A stretch of 56,278 nt of DNA from a virus: positions 1-56,278 of IMG/VR virus record IMGVR_UViG_3300006916_000005. The stretch is one strand, 5' to 3'. The notes below the pieces were generated by a model. It made no database searches, was not told the origin of the DNA, and saw nothing but the letters and a program-made list of their open reading frames with translations. Made by a program: the position numbers and the translations under genes. Every line of letters begins with the position of its first letter. Position 1 is the stretch's first letter. Of this stretch, positions 212 to 40,746 are shown piece after piece.

Positions 212-266
212 AAACTAGACGGCTTTTCGGCGGAAGTAAACCCCTTATTTCGAAACAGTCTGTTTC
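212..266 (-). promoter_or_regulatory. Repeated promoter-operator cassette, copy 1
   Basis: On the minus strand: -35 TTTACT (235-240), 17-bp spacer, -10 TAGTTT (212-217). A perfect 15-bp dyad GAAACAGTCTGTTTC (252-266) lies 11 bp upstream of the -35 box. The leader carries the ATCAGAAACGG motif shared by the other cassettes. It drives the gene starting at 184. The dyad is the best preserved of the series. Confidence 0.75.
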
Positions 267-6766: not shown

Positions 6767-7606
6767 TTATTTCTTGCGAGGTTTCCCGCCGGTCAGAGTG
6801 GTCCCAGCGGCGGTCGCCATCTGAGCGCCGTATTCCCGGCCCTTCGACTTGACGACCTCCATCTGTTTCGTGACGTTCCAGCCGTCGGCGGACCACGGGT
6901 TCGACGATCCGGACATCGTTCCAGCTCCACGACCAGCACCAGCCGCGCCGCCACCTTGCGACGGAGGCCACCAGTGCGGGCGCTTATCTTGCATGTCCTG
7001 AAGCCAGACGCCAGCCTCGACGCCGGGGGTCACGCCCACGCCGTCACGGGTGACGATGGTTCCATCTTCAGTGACCTCGAAGACCCGTTCGGCGAGGAAT
7101 AGGGCGTCCTCGTGGGCTTCCGGGATCACCTTCTGTTCGACCAGAGCTTCGCGGACCGTGTCGTGGATCGCGCGGCGTGTGTTCTGGACTTTGAAGGTCT
7201 GGTTCTCTTCGCGGAGAGCGTTCAGCTCCTTCTCCGCTTGCGACAGCTGTCGCTGAAGGGGAGCTTCGCGGGACTTGATCGTCCCCTCGACCCGGCGGTT
7301 CACGATCTCGTCGATCGCAGCTTCGTCGAGCTTGCCAGCGGCGGCGGCTTCGAGTTCGGGGAGCTTGTCGAGCTTGGACTGGAGTTCCTCCAGATCGCCC
7401 AGCGCGCTCCATGGTTCGAGAGCTTGTTTCGCTTGCTGGTGGTCGTTGCGCTCCTTCAGGAGAGCCGACTGAACCCGCTCGAAGTCAGCTTGGGTCTTGA
7501 CCCCGGCGATGCCGGTCAGCTCGAACTTGCCACCTTTTTCGGTGTAGAGGTCGCGGTAGACCTCCGGGATGTCGTCGATTGTGTCATGAATTGCTTGGAG
7601 TGACAT
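6767..7606 (-). CDS. Capsid scaffolding protein
   Basis: 279 residues. It probably forms the internal scaffold on which the capsid assembles. The long central coiled coil (about residues 50-140, with KAKQAL, LQSKLDKLPELEAAAAGKLD and RQLSQAEKELNALREENQ), acidic/basic heptads, lack of a globular core and a basic Gly-rich C-terminus (TLTGGKPRKK) fit scaffold proteins, as does the position directly before the capsid gene. The start at 7606 has AAAGGA upstream; the in-frame ATG at 7639 does not. Confidence 0.8.
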   Translation of the reverse strand: MSLQAIHDTIDDIPEVYRDLYTEKGGKFELTGIAGVKTQADFERVQSALLKERNDHQQAKQALEPWSALGDLEELQSKLDKLPELEAAAAGKLDEAAIDEIVNRRVEGTIKSREAPLQRQLSQAEKELNALREENQTFKVQNTRRAIHDTVREALVEQKVIPEAHEDALFLAERVFEVTEDGTIVTRDGVGVTPGVEAGVWLQDMQDKRPHWWPPSQGGGAAGAGRGAGTMSGSSNPWSADGWNVTKQMEVVKSKGREYGAQMATAAGTTLTGGKPRKK

Positions 7607-7696
7607 GTCTGTCCTTTCTGTCTGCCCATGCAGTTGCATCAGTGGACCCCATGGCCCACTCGATGCGGGGACCTTACATGGGCAGACAGTAGAACG

Positions 7697-8107
7697 TCAA
7701 GCGTCCTCGCCCCGGAGGATCATCACGATGTCCAGACAGGCGGACAGCTGTTCCGGAATGGCGGTGAAGATCACCATCACCGGGAACGGTCGTTCACTGG
7801 TGACTGAGAAATAGAACCCTGTGACTGTAGCTCCATGAACTGGGTGGACGAAATTAATGCGGTTCAAGAAGGTCAGGGCGAAGTCGTCTTCGACTTTCGA
7901 GATCGAGCCGTAGCAAACGCCACGAGGGGACTTGATCAGATACCCGTCGACCATTCCATCGGGCGATCGGAAGGTGGTGAACTTCTCGACGTCGTGGTTC
8001 TGGAAGATGCCTTCGATCTCCGGCAAGGTCTCCGCGTTCGAGAATATGGGGACGAAGATCAGAAGCCCAGTGATCAGGGCGGCGAGGTAGTTGTTGCGGT
8101 TGAACAT
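7697..8107 (-). CDS. Secreted or periplasmic hypothetical protein
   Basis: 136 residues with a clear Sec signal peptide: basic start (MFNRNN), hydrophobic core (YLAALITGLLIFVPIF) and a cleavage-like SNA-E site near residue 25. The mature part has two cysteines (in GVCYGS and SACLDI) that could form a disulphide. No family recognised. It ends a string of small genes lying between the Mu-F-like head gene and the scaffold, downstream of promoter 9232-9285. An accessory envelope-acting role such as superinfection exclusion is possible but speculative. Confidence 0.7.
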   Translation of the reverse strand: MFNRNNYLAALITGLLIFVPIFSNAETLPEIEGIFQNHDVEKFTTFRSPDGMVDGYLIKSPRGVCYGSISKVEDDFALTFLNRINFVHPVHGATVTGFYFSVTSERPFPVMVIFTAIPEQLSACLDIVMILRGEDA

Positions 8108-8162
8108 AGTTCTCTCCTTGGGTTGTGGGTTGGGCGAGTGTGGAGGCTCGCCCCGGCAGCTG

Positions 8163-8414
8163 TCAAGCTCGACGATGTTCGGTCCACTCTTCCGAGGTCT
8201 GCCAGCCCATGGACGCCTCGTCGGTTGCCGCGTGGGTGTGGAGGATGACGCCGACGATGAAGTAGCTGTGGTCGGGGTCCATCTCTTCCCAGCATCGACA
8301 CATCAGGCTAGCTTGCGAGACAGCGTCCTCGATCGACAAGGTGTTCAGGAACTCCGTCCGGGAGCGGTTCCCGTGGATCGCGGAGTAGCGGTTGAATGTG
8401 ACGCGAAAGTCCAT
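8163..8414 (-). CDS. Hypothetical small protein
   Basis: 83 residues, mixed alpha/beta by eye, with a Cys-rich patch (LMCRCWEEMD) and a His-containing C-terminal region (ILHTHAATDE). Not recognised. Its ATG overlaps the TGA of the upstream gene (ATGA), so it is translated as part of the small-gene string starting at 9201. A role in early host takeover is plausible from the promoter type only. Confidence 0.65.
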   Translation of the reverse strand: MDFRVTFNRYSAIHGNRSRTEFLNTLSIEDAVSQASLMCRCWEEMDPDHSYFIVGVILHTHAATDEASMGWQTSEEWTEHRRA

Positions 8415-8584
8415 CAGTTGATCTCCTTCAGGCTGGAGGTTGCGACGACGCGGGTGGTGAAGCGTGTCCGCTCCCAGTAGGCGTTGTCCTTGACCCGGAC
8501 GACGGTCAGGACGCCGTCCGAGTTGATGATCTCACAGCGAACGTCTGTCGCTGTGAGGTGGGTCGGGTTGAAGGTGGCGTTCAT
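8414..8584 (-). CDS. Hypothetical small protein
   Basis: 56 residues from the ATG at 8584, which overlaps the stop of the preceding gene; an upstream in-frame ATG at 8641 lies deep inside that gene and is not favoured. Beta-rich sequence (DVRCEIINSDGVLTVVRVKD) with no recognised family. It overlaps its neighbours at both ends by four bases, typical of the tightly packed accessory string. Confidence 0.6.
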   Translation of the reverse strand: MNATFNPTHLTATDVRCEIINSDGVLTVVRVKDNAYWERTRFTTRVVATSSLKEIN

Positions 8585-8874
8585 GCCACCATCTCCCGGG
8601 TGATTCGCTTCTTCTCGAAGCCCAGTTCCGTCGACAGCCACTTCGTGACGGCGAAGACGTTGGGCGACAGGAAGGCGAGGCGAAGGGACTGGAGGTCCCC
8701 GTCGCTGTTCAGGTCGTAGACCCAGCCGTCGAAGGTCAGGTCCGGGTGATCCGCCGCCAGCTGTTCGCGGGTCTTCTGGATGTTCGTGGCTCCGTGCCAG
8801 TTCTCCCAGAGCTTACAGTGGACCGGGACTTCGATCCCGTCGGATGTCTTGCAAATTGCTGTTTTGATAGTCAT
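8581..8874 (-). CDS. Hypothetical small protein
   Basis: 97 residues, ATG at 8874 preceded by AAAGGAT. It begins MTIKTAICKTSDGIEVPVH and has hydrophobic segments near LRLAFLSPNVFAVTKWL. No family recognised. It is the second gene of the string under promoter 9232-9285 and overlaps the next gene by four bases. Confidence 0.65.
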   Translation of the reverse strand: MTIKTAICKTSDGIEVPVHCKLWENWHGATNIQKTREQLAADHPDLTFDGWVYDLNSDGDLQSLRLAFLSPNVFAVTKWLSTELGFEKKRITREMVA

Positions 8875-8886
8875 GGTCTTATCCTT

Positions 8887-9201
8887 TCAAGGAAGATCAT
8901 AGGCACGACGCCCACGGGTTTCCCATTTCTCGATCACAGGCTGGCCCAGCTCGTCCTCGTCGACCACGATGTAGGCGACCGTCTTCAGGACCCGGGCGTA
9001 GCGCTTGCCTTCGGTGGTGAAGATGACGTGGGGGAACTCGTCGATCGAGGCCCACGGGTTGGAACAGAAGTCGCAAGAGGGAGCCGACCAGCGATCGCCG
9101 AACTCGAAGGTGTGACCCTCGTCCGCCTCGCGGAAGTGACCAAGAATGATCGGGTCGAAGCCAATGTGGCGGCGGTCGTTGGTGTGAGATGCGAAGGCCA
9201 T
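8887..9201 (-). CDS. Hypothetical protein with CxxC motif
   Basis: 104 residues. A single CDFC pair (about residues 43-46) and several His residues near the N-terminus (ASHTNDRRHIGF, LGHF) could bind a metal, but no complete zinc-finger family is recognised. It is first in the minus-strand accessory string, with its ATG at 9201 preceded by GGAGCCTCCC and the repeated promoter cassette. Confidence 0.65.
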   Translation of the reverse strand: MAFASHTNDRRHIGFDPIILGHFREADEGHTFEFGDRWSAPSCDFCSNPWASIDEFPHVIFTTEGKRYARVLKTVAYIVVDEDELGQPVIEKWETRGRRAYDLP

Positions 9202-9231
9202 GGGAGGCTCCTTTCCGTTTCTGATGATCTC

Positions 9232-9285
9232 AATCTACACTATGAGCGGCAGATGTAAACCCCTTATTTCGAAACAGTCTGTTTT
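9232..9285 (-). promoter_or_regulatory. Repeated promoter-operator cassette, copy 2 (leftward, divergent)
   Basis: Minus strand: -35 TTTACA (9254-9259), 16-bp spacer, -10 TAGATT (9232-9237), leader with ATCATCAGAAACGG. The dyad GAAACAGTCTGTTTT (9271-9285) is 11 bp upstream of the -35 box and lies between this promoter and the rightward one at 9299-9327. Confidence 0.8.
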
Positions 9286-9298
9286 TCGCAAATTGTGC

Positions 9299-9327
9299 TT
9301 TACATCTGCCGGGAGATGGTCTATCTA
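9299..9327 (+). promoter_or_regulatory. Repeated promoter cassette, copy 3 (rightward)
   Basis: TTTACA (9299-9304), 17-bp spacer, TATCTA (9322-9327), then ATCATCAGAAACG leading into an AAAGGAA ribosome site. It is the mirror image of the leftward cassette and the only copy reading rightward; the two share the dyad at 9271-9285. Confidence 0.8.
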
Positions 9328-9356
9328 TAGATCATCAGAAACGAAAGGAACACGAC

Positions 9357-9608
9357 ATGATGACCATCGAACAGAAGAAAGCCAGACGCGCCGCGATCAT
9401 GGACCTGACCGCTGATCTCCGCGCCCAGTATGGTGAGACGCAGGACCAGCTTCGGGCGGTCGAGCTGGAGATGAACGAGATCGACTACCCTTGCGCTCGC
9501 CTCACCCGTCTGTCCGACAAGCGCTGGGACCTGTCCGCTCGCATGACTTCGATCGACGCGAACATAGAGCGCCGGGTCGAGGCTTATCTGAAGGAGATCG
9601 CAGCATGA
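9357..9608 (+). CDS. Hypothetical coiled-coil protein, plus strand
   Basis: 83 residues, one of only two plus-strand genes. Highly charged and helical throughout (QKKARRAAIMDLTADLRAQ, LRAVELEMNEID), suggesting a coiled coil or small helical bundle. It starts at ATG 9357 (a second ATG follows at once) after AAAGGAA and the rightward cassette. It overlaps the next gene by ATGA. No family recognised. The opposite orientation to the surrounding late genes is unusual. Confidence 0.8.
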   Translation: MMTIEQKKARRAAIMDLTADLRAQYGETQDQLRAVELEMNEIDYPCARLTRLSDKRWDLSARMTSIDANIERRVEAYLKEIAA

Positions 9609-9850
9609 CCGGGGACAACACTCTCCGCCTCGACGTCTGGTTCTCTCCGGAGTTCCAGTCGTGGGGCGTGACCGAATATCTTGGCGACGACCTGAACGAG
9701 ACCGGAACGGAGAGCGAATGGTTCTACTTGAAGATCGGCGCGATCGAGCGCGCGAACGAGCGGCTCCACAGCCTCGACGACGAGGTCCAGCGGGTGGACA
9801 TCTACTCGAAGGCGTGGAACCTGATGTCGTCGAAGACGATGCTATCGTGA
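9605..9850 (+). CDS. Hypothetical protein, plus strand
   Basis: 81 residues starting MTGDNTLRLDVWFSPEFQSW. The ATG at 9605 overlaps the stop of the upstream gene, indicating coupled translation. Acidic, mixed structure, no family recognised. Its end overlaps the end of the convergent minus gene at 9842 by nine bases, and no terminator is visible between them. Confidence 0.75.
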   Translation: MTGDNTLRLDVWFSPEFQSWGVTEYLGDDLNETGTESEWFYLKIGAIERANERLHSLDDEVQRVDIYSKAWNLMSSKTMLS

Positions 9851-10024
9851 CCGGAGCCAGATGATCTCGCACAGTCCGGCGGACGTTCCGTCGGACTGGC
9901 ACCGCTTCATGAAGTGGACGTAGGTTTCGCCCTTCCGTGGGCGCTTGTCGTTCGGATCGAGCTTCCGGAGGACGTCGATCGGCGCTGATCCGACAGAGCC
10001 TCGATCGTTCAAGAGGCCCAGCAT
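9842..10024 (-). CDS. Hypothetical protein, possibly the C-terminal part of a split gene
   Basis: 60 residues from ATG 10024, ending convergently with the plus-strand gene. The frame stays open upstream to about 10114 with protein-like codons (KSIWESRERTLFGTRQALRD) but has no ATG, GTG or TTG there and no ribosome site at 10024. The open stretch overlaps the end of the 38-residue gene at 10089-10205 in the +1 frame, so the two may be one frameshifted gene. Function unknown. Confidence 0.5.
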   Translation of the reverse strand: MLGLLNDRGSVGSAPIDVLRKLDPNDKRPRKGETYVHFMKRCQSDGTSAGLCEIIWLRSR

Positions 10025-10088
10025 GTCACGGAGAGCTTGGCGGGTCCCGAACAGGGTCCGCTCGCGGCTCTCCCAGATCGACTTCGCT

Positions 10089-10205
10089 TTAGACCGTGTC
10101 GAGAAACGTGTTCAGATCGGTCAGCTCTGTTTCGACTTGCGCCTTCAGGGAGATGATGTCGGACATCGCTGTCGCGATCGCTTGGAGCTTCTGTAAAAGT
10201 GTCAT
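10089..10205 (-). CDS. Short coiled-coil peptide
   Basis: 38 residues, wholly helical (MTLLQKLQAIATAMSDI and LKAQVETELTDLNTFLD), with an AAGGA site before the ATG at 10205. It lies 40 bp after the Mu-F-like head gene. It may stand alone, or be the N-terminal part of the following frame (see 9842-10024). Function unknown. Confidence 0.6.
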   Translation of the reverse strand: MTLLQKLQAIATAMSDIISLKAQVETELTDLNTFLDTV

Positions 10206-10244
10206 GTTGTGCGTCCTTGTGGGTTTGCGTGGGATAGCCCTATA

Positions 10245-11429
10245 TCACAAGAAGTTGTCCGGGTCGAGACCGGCGGCGATGAAGGCGTCCCGGTCGCGTC
10301 GAGCGAGCTGTGACAGGGTCAGCTCGTCGCCCCTACGGTTCACGAAGCGATCGAGCTTCAGGTTCCCGTCCCGGAAGAGCTTGGCCCGGGTTGGTCCGAG
10401 GATGTCGATCTGGAAGGACGTCGGCTGTCGGGTCAACCAATCCTGATAGCTGATCTTCGCGTCGATGACGCCGGTCCGCTTCCTGATCTCGCCCCGGGAG
10501 AACTGATCGAAGCTCCCCTTGTGACCACGGGGAAGGGAGGCCCGGTTGCCCACAGGCTTGATCCCCGCCTTCTTTGCATAGTCCCGGAGAAGGCCCTTCT
10601 CTGTCACCGCCTTCGCTGGACGCTTTCCAATGACCTCGCCGTCCAGTTCCGCGACACGAAGGGACCGACAGTTCCAATGTAGCGGCGGGATAGGTCCCTT
10701 TCCGACAGGGAACCGCTTTCCATCGTTTGCACGACAGACCGGAGTGGTTCGGCTGTCCAGTGTGGCGACGTAGACCTCCCGGTCGAAGACGTCGGCGTTC
10801 GCTTTGTAGAACTCTCGCTTCGCGGCGTTGCTGTAGGAATTGACGGCGGTCCGGGCGATCGCTTGGGCTTGTCTCCGCGTGATCTGTGTGACCCCATCCT
10901 TGCCTCTCTGGTTTACCGATCCGACCACCCTCCGGGCGATCTCTCGCGTGGGTTCACCTTGGACGACACCGATCCGGATCGCTTGCTCGATCCTCTGGAG
11001 GTCAGCCCGGGCGATCTGGTTCGACCAGTCCTTCAGGGTCCGGCCCTCGAAGGGGTGGTGTGTGACCAGCGCCTTCAGAGTGTCGACATTCGGGAGGACT
11101 GTGTCAAGGAGGACAGGGGCGACGGTCTGGAGAGCGGTCGCCAGAAGCGCCGGTTCAGCCTGAACCAGAGCGAGCATCTCGTCACGCCAGACTTGGGAAC
11201 TTTTTTTCCAGCTCTCCGAGCGTATAGCGGCGATCGCCTTGATCAGCCTCTCCTGACTTGCCACCGATCGGCTCTTGTCGAGCCTCTTGATGATCAGGTC
11301 CTTGATGTCCTTCTCCGTGGCGTCGAGAAGATCGAAGACATCGTTCCGAACCTTCCCGGAAAGCCGGAGAAGTCCGATCTGATGCCGGATCATCGCGTCC
11401 AGCCACTCGTCGTTGATGTCGTTCGCCAT
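10245..11429 (-). CDS. Head morphogenesis protein, Mu gpF / SPP1 gp7 family
   Basis: 394 residues. Proteins of this family are minor head proteins near the portal, needed for assembly and in some phages carried into the cell with the DNA. The diagnostic segment is at residues 219-259: EVYVATLDSRTTPVC, then GKGPIPPLHWNCRSLRV, with C232 and C254. The N-terminal 200 residues are helical and include a long portal-binding-type region. The gene follows portal and a putative virion protein, the usual order. The ATG at 11429 has GAGAG upstream. Confidence 0.85.
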   Translation of the reverse strand: MANDINDEWLDAMIRHQIGLLRLSGKVRNDVFDLLDATEKDIKDLIIKRLDKSRSVASQERLIKAIAAIRSESWKKSSQVWRDEMLALVQAEPALLATALQTVAPVLLDTVLPNVDTLKALVTHHPFEGRTLKDWSNQIARADLQRIEQAIRIGVVQGEPTREIARRVVGSVNQRGKDGVTQITRRQAQAIARTAVNSYSNAAKREFYKANADVFDREVYVATLDSRTTPVCRANDGKRFPVGKGPIPPLHWNCRSLRVAELDGEVIGKRPAKAVTEKGLLRDYAKKAGIKPVGNRASLPRGHKGSFDQFSRGEIRKRTGVIDAKISYQDWLTRQPTSFQIDILGPTRAKLFRDGNLKLDRFVNRRGDELTLSQLARRDRDAFIAAGLDPDNFL

Positions 11430-16227: not shown

Positions 16228-16480
16228 AAGCAACCGACCTTGGACAACCTCCGACCTCAAAAGCTCCAAGTTCTAAGAATATTATATATTTCTACTGATT
16301 TCAAAAAGGTTGGGGAGGTTGGGGAGGTTGTCTTTCATTAAGAAAATCAGGAACTTACTTCGGACGACCTTTGGACAACGGGTCGACCTTGGACGACCTT
16401 TGGACGACCTCGACCGCCCGAAGTCCCTTCTTTCGTGGGCTTTCGGGCGGTTTTGAAAGGTTGTCCAGAGGTTGGGTCGA
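16228..16480. other. Repeat-rich noncoding element E1 upstream of terminase
   Basis: The 324 bases between the small terminase and the MazG-like gene hold no gene. They contain an AT-rich core (16273-16303, TTATATATTTCT), three AGGTTGGGG/AGGTTGTC units in tandem (16307-16332), their inverted partner GACAACCTCC (16243-16252), and a set of GGACGACCTTT-type 11-bp units (16362-16412). A closely related element is at 40456-40600, with the same core and iterons in the same orientation relative to the downstream gene. It is a candidate late promoter, origin or packaging site. Confidence 0.7.
16414..16454 (+). terminator. Hairpin with T-tract on plus strand in E1
   Basis: CCGCCCGAAG and CTTTCGGGCGG arms around an inner GTCCC/GGGC stem, followed by TTTT on the plus strand. 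On the minus strand, where transcription is expected, no T-run follows. It may stop antisense transcription or act as an RNA structure after the MazG-like gene. Confidence 0.45.
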
Positions 16481-17518: not shown

Positions 17519-17542
17519 GTTCTTTCTCCTTGGATTGTGGGC

Positions 17543-17559
17543 GGGGGTGGTCCCCTCCC
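17543..17559 (-). repeat. GC-rich intercistronic hairpin, copy a
   Basis: An imperfect GGGAGGGG / CCCC stem directly after a stop codon and the sequence AATCAACCCGG. The same stop-AATCAACC-hairpin arrangement is found at 18242-18261 and 25043-25062. No T-run follows, so it is not a normal terminator. Confidence 0.5.
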
Positions 17560-17566
17560 GGGTTGA

Positions 17567-17800
17567 TTAAGCTGCGACCGCGTCGGCTTCGATGAAGAGG
17601 ATCAGGTTCCGGAGAGCCTTCGAACGCTTCAGCATCTCGTCGCGGGTGTGGACATTCAGCGTAGGGAAGCGGAGGCTCTTGCGGTGGCTGATCACGGTGA
17701 AGCGATCGTCGCTGTCGGCGATCACGGTGTATTCCGTGGCGTTCGCGGTGAAGCTGTAGGCGGTGCGGTCGTTCGTGGTGATGTCGGTCTTGATGATCAT
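17567..17800 (-). CDS. Hypothetical small protein
   Basis: 77 residues, MIIKTDITTNDRTAYSFTAN start, a beta-rich N-terminal half and a helical C-terminal half (LKRSKALRNLILFIEADAVA). ATG 17800 follows the cassette leader and GGAACCAAGAC. No family recognised. First gene of the 17800-16490 group and driven by promoter 17831-17885. Confidence 0.75.
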   Translation of the reverse strand: MIIKTDITTNDRTAYSFTANATEYTVIADSDDRFTVISHRKSLRFPTLNVHTRDEMLKRSKALRNLILFIEADAVAA

Positions 17801-18219: not shown

Positions 18220-18241
18220 GTCAGTCGCTCCTTGCGGCTGT

Positions 18242-18261
18242 GGGGAGGGTCGCCCCTCCCC
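18242..18261 (-). repeat. GC-rich intercistronic hairpin, copy b
   Basis: Perfect 8-bp stem GGGGAGGG/CCCTCCCC with a GCGA (GNRA-type) tetraloop on the minus strand, just after the stop at 18269 and the phrase AATCAACCC. It is nearly identical to 25043-25062. Confidence 0.6.
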
Positions 18262-18268
18262 GGGTTGA

Positions 18269-18520
18269 TTAGAGGTGTCCGTAGAACTGGCGACCGTCGA
18301 TCCGTCCGATTTCGCTGAAGCCAGCCGGGACGATCGAGGTCCCCATCAGTTCATGAAGCTCCAGCTCGTCGGCGTCGATCTCGACCTCGACCCAGTTGTC
18401 GCTCTCCGCGCCGGTTCCCCAGTCGATCGGGTTCTTGCCAGCTGGGATCATCTGGTAGACGACGTTCGTGACGTCGTAGCGGCGTTCGGTCCAGTTCTTG
18501 TTCTTGAAGAGGCGGTCCAT
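18269..18520 (-). CDS. Hypothetical small protein
   Basis: 83 residues, basic N-terminus (LFKNKNWTERRYDV), acidic centre (EVEIDADELELHELMG) and a Gly-rich C-terminus. No family recognised. ATG 18520 is preceded by AAAGGAACACAAC and promoter cassette 18551-18605, so it should be strongly and early expressed. Confidence 0.75.
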   Translation of the reverse strand: MDRLFKNKNWTERRYDVTNVVYQMIPAGKNPIDWGTGAESDNWVEVEIDADELELHELMGTSIVPAGFSEIGRIDGRQFYGHL

Positions 18521-19133: not shown

Positions 19134-19271
19134 TTAGTCGATCAGGACGATGTTGATCGGGCGATCGTTCGGAGCCATGATCCACTCCGCGCGGGCTTTG
19201 GCTTGGGAGTAGTCATCGCCCCGGACCCGGAGCTTCGCGCCTTTGAGTGTTTCGATCTGCCAGAGTTTCAT
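19134..19271 (-). CDS. Hypothetical 45-residue protein
   Basis: A very short gene (MKLWQIETLKGAKLRVRG start, INIVLID end) directly behind the cassette at 19302-19356, with AAAGGAACACGAC before the ATG at 19271. The sequence alternates like a small beta-alpha-beta unit, with a helix DDYSQAKARAEWIM. Its own full promoter and ribosome site support it being real. Function unknown. Confidence 0.75.
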   Translation of the reverse strand: MKLWQIETLKGAKLRVRGDDYSQAKARAEWIMAPNDRPINIVLID

Positions 19272-19301
19272 GTCGTGTTCCTTTCCGTTTCTGATGATCT
19301 A

Positions 19302-19356
19302 TAGATAGACCATCTCCCGGCAGATGTAAACCCTCCACCGGGAAACAATTTGTCAT
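19302..19356 (-). promoter_or_regulatory. Repeated promoter-operator cassette, copy 6
   Basis: Minus strand: -35 TTTACA (19325-19330), 17-bp spacer, -10 TATCTA (19302-19307). Degenerate dyad GAAACAATTTGTCAT at 19342-19356, overlapping the stop codon of the upstream gene. Leader identical to copies 3 and 7. Confidence 0.82.
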
Positions 19357-25022: not shown

Positions 25023-25042
25023 GGTCAGGCTTCCTTGTGTGC

Positions 25043-25062
25043 GGGGAGGGTCGCCCCTCCCC
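25043..25062 (-). repeat. GC-rich intercistronic hairpin, copy c
   Basis: Perfect GGGGAGGG/CCCTCCCC stem with GCGA loop after the stop at 25070 and AATCAACCC, almost identical to 18242-18261. No T-run follows on the minus strand. Confidence 0.6.
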
Positions 25063-25069
25063 GGGTTGA

Positions 25070-25312
25070 TTAGATCGCCAGCGCTTTCGCGAGGTGGCGG
25101 ATGAAGTGGAGGACGTCGCCGTTCGCGAAGTCGATCTTCACGAGGATCGTCTTGATCTGGGCGCGTTCCTGTTGCGGAGCGGCTTTGATCGCGTTGAGAA
25201 CGATCGCGACCGGGATCATGTTGACGCCGAAGTCGCCGTCGACCTCGATGATCTGGTCGGTGTTGATGTTCTTCTCTTCGATCAGGGTGTCGAGCCACTT
25301 GTTGAAGTTCAT
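25070..25312 (-). CDS. Hypothetical small protein
   Basis: 80 residues, helical (MNFNKWLDTLIEEKNINTDQ, VAIVLNAIKAAPQQERAQ). ATG 25312 follows AAAGGAACCAAGAC and the cassette at 25344-25397. It heads a long series of small genes down to 21144, including thyX and the exonuclease. No family recognised. Confidence 0.75.
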   Translation of the reverse strand: MNFNKWLDTLIEEKNINTDQIIEVDGDFGVNMIPVAIVLNAIKAAPQQERAQIKTILVKIDFANGDVLHFIRHLAKALAI

Positions 25313-27720: not shown

Positions 27721-28038
27721 TTACTTCTGGAGCTTCCAGAAGTCAATGAGGTGTTGACAATCCTCGTGTCCTTTTTCCATCCGGTTGACCCAGAGGCGGG
27801 ACAAACCCAGCTCCTTCGCGAGCGCTCCCTGTGACATCTTCGATCGGTTGCGCATGATCACGCAAGCCTCGAAGTCCGACAGACGCCGCTTCAGCTTGCC
27901 GTTCTGGTTGCCTTCTTTCGCTTGATACTGGTGGCGGGTCAGACCCAGCCGATCAGCCATCTCGACCTGATCGAGACCGTCCCTGTGACGCTTGACCGCC
28001 AGCCATTCACCTTGATTAATTTCGAGCAAGTATCGCAT
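27721..28038 (-). CDS. Tandem helix-turn-helix regulator
   Basis: 105 residues containing two HTH motifs of the Cro/CI type: QVEMADRLGLTRHQYQAKEG near residues 24-43 and SQGALAKELGLSRLWVNRME near 69-88. Two HTHs in so short a chain suggests a compact dyad-binding protein that could act without dimerising. It is the only recognisable transcription regulator in the early region and therefore a candidate ligand of the repeated 15-bp dyad. The ATG lies 23 bp inside the nuclease gene. Confidence 0.78.
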   Translation of the reverse strand: MRYLLEINQGEWLAVKRHRDGLDQVEMADRLGLTRHQYQAKEGNQNGKLKRRLSDFEACVIMRNRSKMSQGALAKELGLSRLWVNRMEKGHEDCQHLIDFWKLQK

Positions 28039-40455: not shown

Positions 40456-40600
40456 GAGAAAGCAACCGGGACGACCTTGGACAACCTCCCGACCTTCCCA
40501 TCCCTAAAATTGCTGGGAATTCTTATATATTTCTATTACTTCTTGAAAGGTTGGGGAGGTTGGGGAGGTTGTCTTCAGTATTAAAAATCAAAGGCTTACA
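40456..40600. other. Repeat-rich noncoding element E2 upstream of helicase
   Basis: Homologue of E1: GACGACCTTGGACAACCTCCC (40471-40490 region), AT-rich core TTATATATTTCTA (40522-40534), then AGGTTGGGG twice and AGGTTGTC (40548-40573). Both elements lie on the same side of, and in the same orientation to, their downstream gene. The minus strand carries CCAACCTTT-N16-TATATAA in both, which could be an activator-dependent promoter. The remaining part of the 40411-40836 gap holds the terminator at 40747-40777 and nothing else I recognise. Confidence 0.68.
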
Positions 40601-40746
40601 GCTGCCGACCTCTGTTTGAAGGTTGTCCGAGGTTGGGCTGTTTTGGGATCAATCGTCCCGGAGCCGCGACCAGAAGGCGTTCGAGGTGTCGGTGTGGTTG
40701 GGGAGGATGGAATTGATCAGACGACCGATCAGATGGTCGGTCCTAT

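Follow-up and report, generated by a model that had tools for sequence, protein, structure and literature searches.

Does a palindrome flanked by two promoters that point away from each other act as a switch between two directions of transcription, or do two ordinary promoters of this phage stand back to back? The locus lies in IMGVR_UViG_3300006916_000005, a 56-kb virus record with a 123-bp direct terminal repeat whose protein matches are to Nipunavirus (Queuovirinae) and to relatives of YuA and Pam3; the window analysed here is the whole record of 56,278 nucleotides. A host search via genome contigs returned distant relatives only. The contig IMGVR_UViG_3300025759_000186 (L020, L023, L053) is of the same phage (99.99% identical), and no copy of window positions 7500-10300 was found in it apart from the cassettes themselves; the divergent-pair region lies outside the coverage of the near-identical contig G001. 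A preliminary description of the window had proposed that a single dyad could control two mirror-image promoters as a natural switch, and that the rightward promoter drives the only plus-strand genes of the genome. The features of the locus are the following:

7697-9850, no strand: inserted accessory island, between a frameshifted small gene and the scaffold gene, absent in the closest relative
8887-9201, minus strand: first leftward gene, 104 aa, PHROG 23785 (unknown function)
9208-9228, minus strand: leftward start-associated box ATCATCAGAAACGGAAAGGAG with the ribosome-binding site of the leftward gene
9232-9237, minus strand: -10 element TAGATT of the leftward promoter, 16-bp spacer
9254-9259, minus strand: -35 element TTTACA of the leftward promoter, then TCTGCCG
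9271-9285, no strand: dyad GAAACAGTCTGTTTT, upstream element of the leftward cassette and possibly common to the rightward one
9299-9304, plus strand: -35 element TTTACA of the rightward promoter, then TCTGCCGG
9322-9327, plus strand: -10 element TATCTA of the rightward promoter, 17-bp spacer
9331-9349, plus strand: rightward start-associated box ATCATCAGAAACGAAAGGA with a ribosome-binding site
9357-9608, plus strand: plus-strand gene 1, 83 aa, predicted helical coiled coil, orphan
9605-9850, plus strand: plus-strand gene 2, 81 aa, orphan
9872-9898, plus strand: 12-pair hairpin 3' of the plus operon, no U tract

The divergent arrangement itself was borne out. A -35 and a -10 element are present on both sides of the dyad, and the two halves of the pair form inverted repeats with 28-nt arms at 9247-9274 and 9284-9311 (79%) and, in a second stretch, 31-nt arms at 9213-9243 and 9316-9346 (77%). 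The dyad stands at nearly the same distance from the two promoters, 19 bp on the leftward and 21 bp on the rightward side. No near copy of the 161-bp region of the pair was found in GenBank phages, and an exact scan of viral contigs returned no other divergent cassette pair.

As had been described, the rightward promoter stands ahead of two small genes that overlap (by ATGA), and AAAGGA precedes the first ATG of the upstream one. By codon statistics, no other plus-strand gene is supported: codon scoring across the record indicated minus-strand genes throughout, save for these two, which are the best-scoring plus-strand ORFs (19.2 and 23.8; runner-up 7.1), and the antisense ORF at 9321-9902 scored -70. 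Searches of PHROGs and Pfam, tblastn of GenBank phages and pattern scans of IMG/VR returned no homologue of either plus-strand protein, nor did GTDB genomes yield one of the second protein. Single-sequence structure prediction gave one long helix for the first (pLDDT 86) and an unreliable model for the second (pLDDT 56). Beginning 22 nt past the stop codon of this operon is the top-scoring plus-strand hairpin of the window, the 80-nt context of which reached -38.7 kcal/mol as plus-strand RNA (z -3.9 versus shuffles). As minus-strand RNA the hairpin gave a z of -0.3 and is unstable, because G-U pairs turn into A-C mismatches. This structure is a hint that the rightward direction is indeed transcribed. 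Lacking a U tract, it is no canonical terminator, and it may block or stabilise the 3' end rather than serve classical termination. A search for Rfam families gave none.

Across the whole genome, the dyad turned out not to be confined to this site. The record holds ten leftward copies and a single rightward copy of a promoter cassette whose parts are an upstream dyad, TTTACATCTGCCG at the -35, a TAnnnT-type -10 and a ATCAGAAACGGAAAGGA start box:

240, 9259, 17859, 18579, 19330, 19792, 20375, 21102, 25371 and 32969, minus strand: -35 starts of the leftward cassettes
9299, plus strand: -35 start of the rightward cassette
252-266, minus strand: perfect dyad copy upstream of the leftward cassette with its -35 at 240
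19268-19330, minus strand: leftward cassette closest to the rightward one by sequence identity

Eleven copies of TTTACATCTGCCG occur in the window, some with one or two changes. The GAAAC-N5-GTTTC dyad is present, more or less intact, at nine of the ten leftward cassettes, with its centre 19-20 bp upstream of the -35; in the order of the -35 starts listed above (240 to 32969), the leftward copies have 0, 1, 5, 3, 3, 1, 0, 1, 1 and 3 mismatches in ten positions. Four cassettes match poorly, namely 17859, which has the near half only, and 18579, 19330 and 32969, with three mismatches each. Over all eleven cassettes the mismatches total 19, versus 50 ± 2.8 in shuffles (none of 2000 was as low), and dyad matches with three mismatches allowed numbered 5, versus 0.8 ± 1.0 in shuffles. 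Since the 5-bp spacer of the dyad is variable (AGACT, AAATT, GTATT, GGATT, GGAGA, CTATT) while the arms are conserved, this pattern argues for selection on the arms, even though the cassette copies are related; because the cassettes are copies of one another, the sequence common to them is partly a matter of descent rather than selection. The palindrome alone does not imply two-way control, since the same dyad accompanies one-way cassettes and is perfect at 252-266, near which no opposing cassette is present.

The rightward promoter conforms closely to this consensus. When the ten leftward cassettes served as the model, its core reached 46.1 bits, a value equalled or exceeded at 3 of 112,496 positions, which makes it the best-scoring cassette in the genome. 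From the -35 to the ATG it is identical to the 19330 leftward cassette at 61 of 62 aligned positions; the nearest kin of its leftward partner are cassettes 25371 and 17859. Because the two halves have different nearest kin, the pair is a composite of two different cassette subtypes. A simple inverted duplication of one cassette was ruled out, as the halves resemble different leftward cassettes.

The island that holds the pair lies between the head-morphogenesis and scaffold genes. In PaMx25, Quinobequin-P09 and YuA, scaffold-region genes directly follow the head-morphogenesis gene. The closest relative found, L125 (major capsid protein 83%, large terminase 71%), has only small same-strand genes between the two, one of them common to the window, and has neither the plus genes nor the five leftward ones at 7697-9201. 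In 52 related contigs this gap is between 7 and 4458 bp long, and nine of them (L010-L012, L172, L174, L182, L185, L193 and L194) carry opposite-strand ORFs with ribosome-binding sites there. Two of these ORFs are conserved between L182 and L185 at 54% and 58% identity, with dN of 0.32-0.33 and dS of 1.1 or saturated, pointing to purifying selection, and two are likewise conserved between L011 and L012. Reversed accessory genes therefore recur at the junction in this group, and the junction is an insertion hot spot. A candidate programmed +1 frameshift was also noted at 10205-9842 (minus strand) of the window, at 5484-5892 of L125 and at 3957-4353 of L137: a 38-aa ORF ends after FLDTV at GTC-TAA, GTC-TAG or GTA-TAA, and the conserved frame carries on in +1 in all three phages.

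On the basis of this anatomy, we think it probable that the pair consists of two standard early/middle cassettes placed back to back in the accessory island and co-activated in the same phase of infection. Co-regulation is predicted because both promoters are of one class and stand at a near-symmetric distance from the dyad. Both promoters would then be used at the same time by host RNA polymerase, with the help of a DNA-binding protein of phage or host origin. The one dyad would act on the leftward promoter and probably, with less effect, on its rightward partner; the leftward promoter would drive the small genes from 9201 to 7697, and the rightward promoter would give rise to both orphan proteins. 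In the late phase, transcription that proceeds leftward from the terminase, portal and head genes would pass through the plus genes in antisense, unless it is stopped. Weighing against this reading are the 2-bp offset and weakened near half of the dyad on the rightward side, the four poorly matching leftward dyads, the part of descent in the likeness of the cassettes, the YuA repeats, in which no dyad was seen, and the missing U tract of the hairpin. A less probable reading, which we nonetheless regard as a serious one, assigns the dyad to the leftward promoter alone, with the rightward promoter working from its consensus core and merely adjoining it. Such an arrangement would suit the position of the dyad centre 2 bp beyond the usual 19 bp from the rightward -35, the weakened near half (GTTTT in place of RTTTC), the loss of GGGG before the -35, the core score that is highest of all cassettes and the different upstream region of the closest kin at 19330. 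Against it, the rightward dyad at its shifted register still ranks within the top 17 of 112,526 genome positions, and a TTTTC near half-site (four of five) lies at the usual register. It is plausible that the rightward promoter uses the dyad more weakly than the leftward promoter does.

That the rightward half is a passive relic, with a silent promoter and plus ORFs that are not made, would agree with the orphan status of both proteins in the collections searched, but we judge it improbable in the light of the strong codon bias in the plus frames and none in the antisense frame, the intact core and ribosome-binding site, the plus-specific hairpin and the recurrence of opposite-strand genes at the same junction in relatives. 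Still harder to credit is a true bidirectional switch, in which one dyad-bound regulator would activate one direction while shutting down the other. A palindrome with promoters pointing away on both sides invites this reading, but the geometry is symmetric, the promoter class is the same on both sides, the same dyad stands at one-way cassettes, no repressor gene adjoins the site and a lysis-lysogeny circuit is not evident. From the interpretation in the preliminary description, we thus retain the divergent pair around one dyad and a rightward promoter that fits the phage's cassette consensus, but find no support for the switch. We hold it doubtful, if slightly less so than the relic, that reversed accessory operons at the junction embody a recurring design in which a divergent promoter would fire early, antisense to the late operon, and be silenced by late read-through, giving automatic early-only expression.

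With co-activated back-to-back cassettes as the preferred reading, an apparent one-off switch becomes a testable rule, namely that almost every cassette of this phage carries an upstream dyad. Most small genes of the phage could then be timed by a single binding protein, for which the divergent pair would constitute a built-in two-way reporter. The junction, which accumulates reversed accessory genes in YuA- and Nipunavirus-related phages, is also a place to seek small host-takeover or anti-defence proteins.

Repeated promoters comparable to the cassette occur in the YuA/M6 type of Pseudomonas phages. The YuA record (NC_010116) has five repeats, CTTTACTTCTTCGG-N-CACTATA, annotated as 'putative sigma70 promoter requiring phage-encoded cofactor', and, as with the cassette, the element (TTTACTTCTTCGG-N-CACTATA in the five YuA copies) is repeated and intergenic. 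The -10 spacing is alike (17 bp in YuA, 16-17 bp in both promoters of the pair), some YuA copies carry a CAGAAATGGAG start box after the repeat as the cassette carries its own, and in both phages homologous HTH genes lie just upstream of the primase. By contrast, no GAAAC-N5-GTTTC dyad was seen among the copies in YuA, all of those annotated face one direction, and the sequence differs from that of the cassette beyond the -35 region. Elements of the TTTACTTCTGCCG type are present in L054, the primase of which is 54% identical to that of the window. In the window, a repeated -35 block (TTTAC(A/T)TCT..CGG-like) lies in gaps before putative early/middle genes, with a -10 hexamer about 17 bp downstream in both promoters of the pair, and the phage encodes a double-HTH protein of the YuA gp25 type upstream of the primase:

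27721-28038, minus strand: 105-aa helix-turn-helix protein, homologue of the YuA gp25 'putative repressor', candidate cassette regulator

This protein is 30% identical to YuA gp25 (E 1e-15), its homologues adjoin the primase in most related contigs, and it is a natural candidate for the regulator of the cassettes. Since no such dyad was seen in YuA, the protein's target may be the -35 block instead of the dyad. We regard the divergent pair as genuine, yet as a modest variation on the repeated promoters known from YuA-like phages. In two related phages (L066 and L088), repeated promoter boxes of their own, with inverted repeats on the flanks of some copies, precede CAGAAAAGGA start boxes.

Other phage systems offer partial parallels. 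The promoter early stem-loops (PeSLs) of T4-like phages are mobile promoter cassettes that shuffle small early genes; they differ from the window's cassette in sequence, host and hairpin architecture. A lambda-type bistable operator switch was considered and rejected: its operator adjoins a repressor gene and separates the repressor from the lytic genes, whereas here the genes on both sides are without a regulator match, and the one HTH gene found in the window lies 18 kb from the divergent pair; nor is the dyad a site-specific operator, since nine of the ten leftward cassettes have it and only one of these nine belongs to a divergent pair. Cluster K mycobacteriophages have start-associated sequences (SAS/ESAS), a box at the start codon that recurs in many gaps between small genes and is preceded by an inverted repeat in about half of the cases, and in four genomes the SAS copies share one orientation except for one (PMC3203893). 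The start box in small-gene gaps, the upstream inverted repeat and the lone inverse copy resemble the cassette; however, the inverse SAS copy is not tied to a gene start, the proposed role is in translation, there is no -35/-10 cassette and the sequence is unrelated (PMC3203893), with a 13-bp GGGATAGGAGCCC at start codons as against the ATCAGAAACGGAAAGGA start box of the window.

The genome carries further repeats. A 92-nt repeat (75%) containing AAGGTTGGGGAGGTTGGGGAGGTTGTC occurs at 16282-16373 and 40523-40614 of the window, and a hairpin-like element, GGGGAGGGTCGCCCCTCCCCGGGTTGATTAGA, is repeated at 18239-18273 and 25040-25074 and also at 17537-17571, two of the copies being 97% identical.
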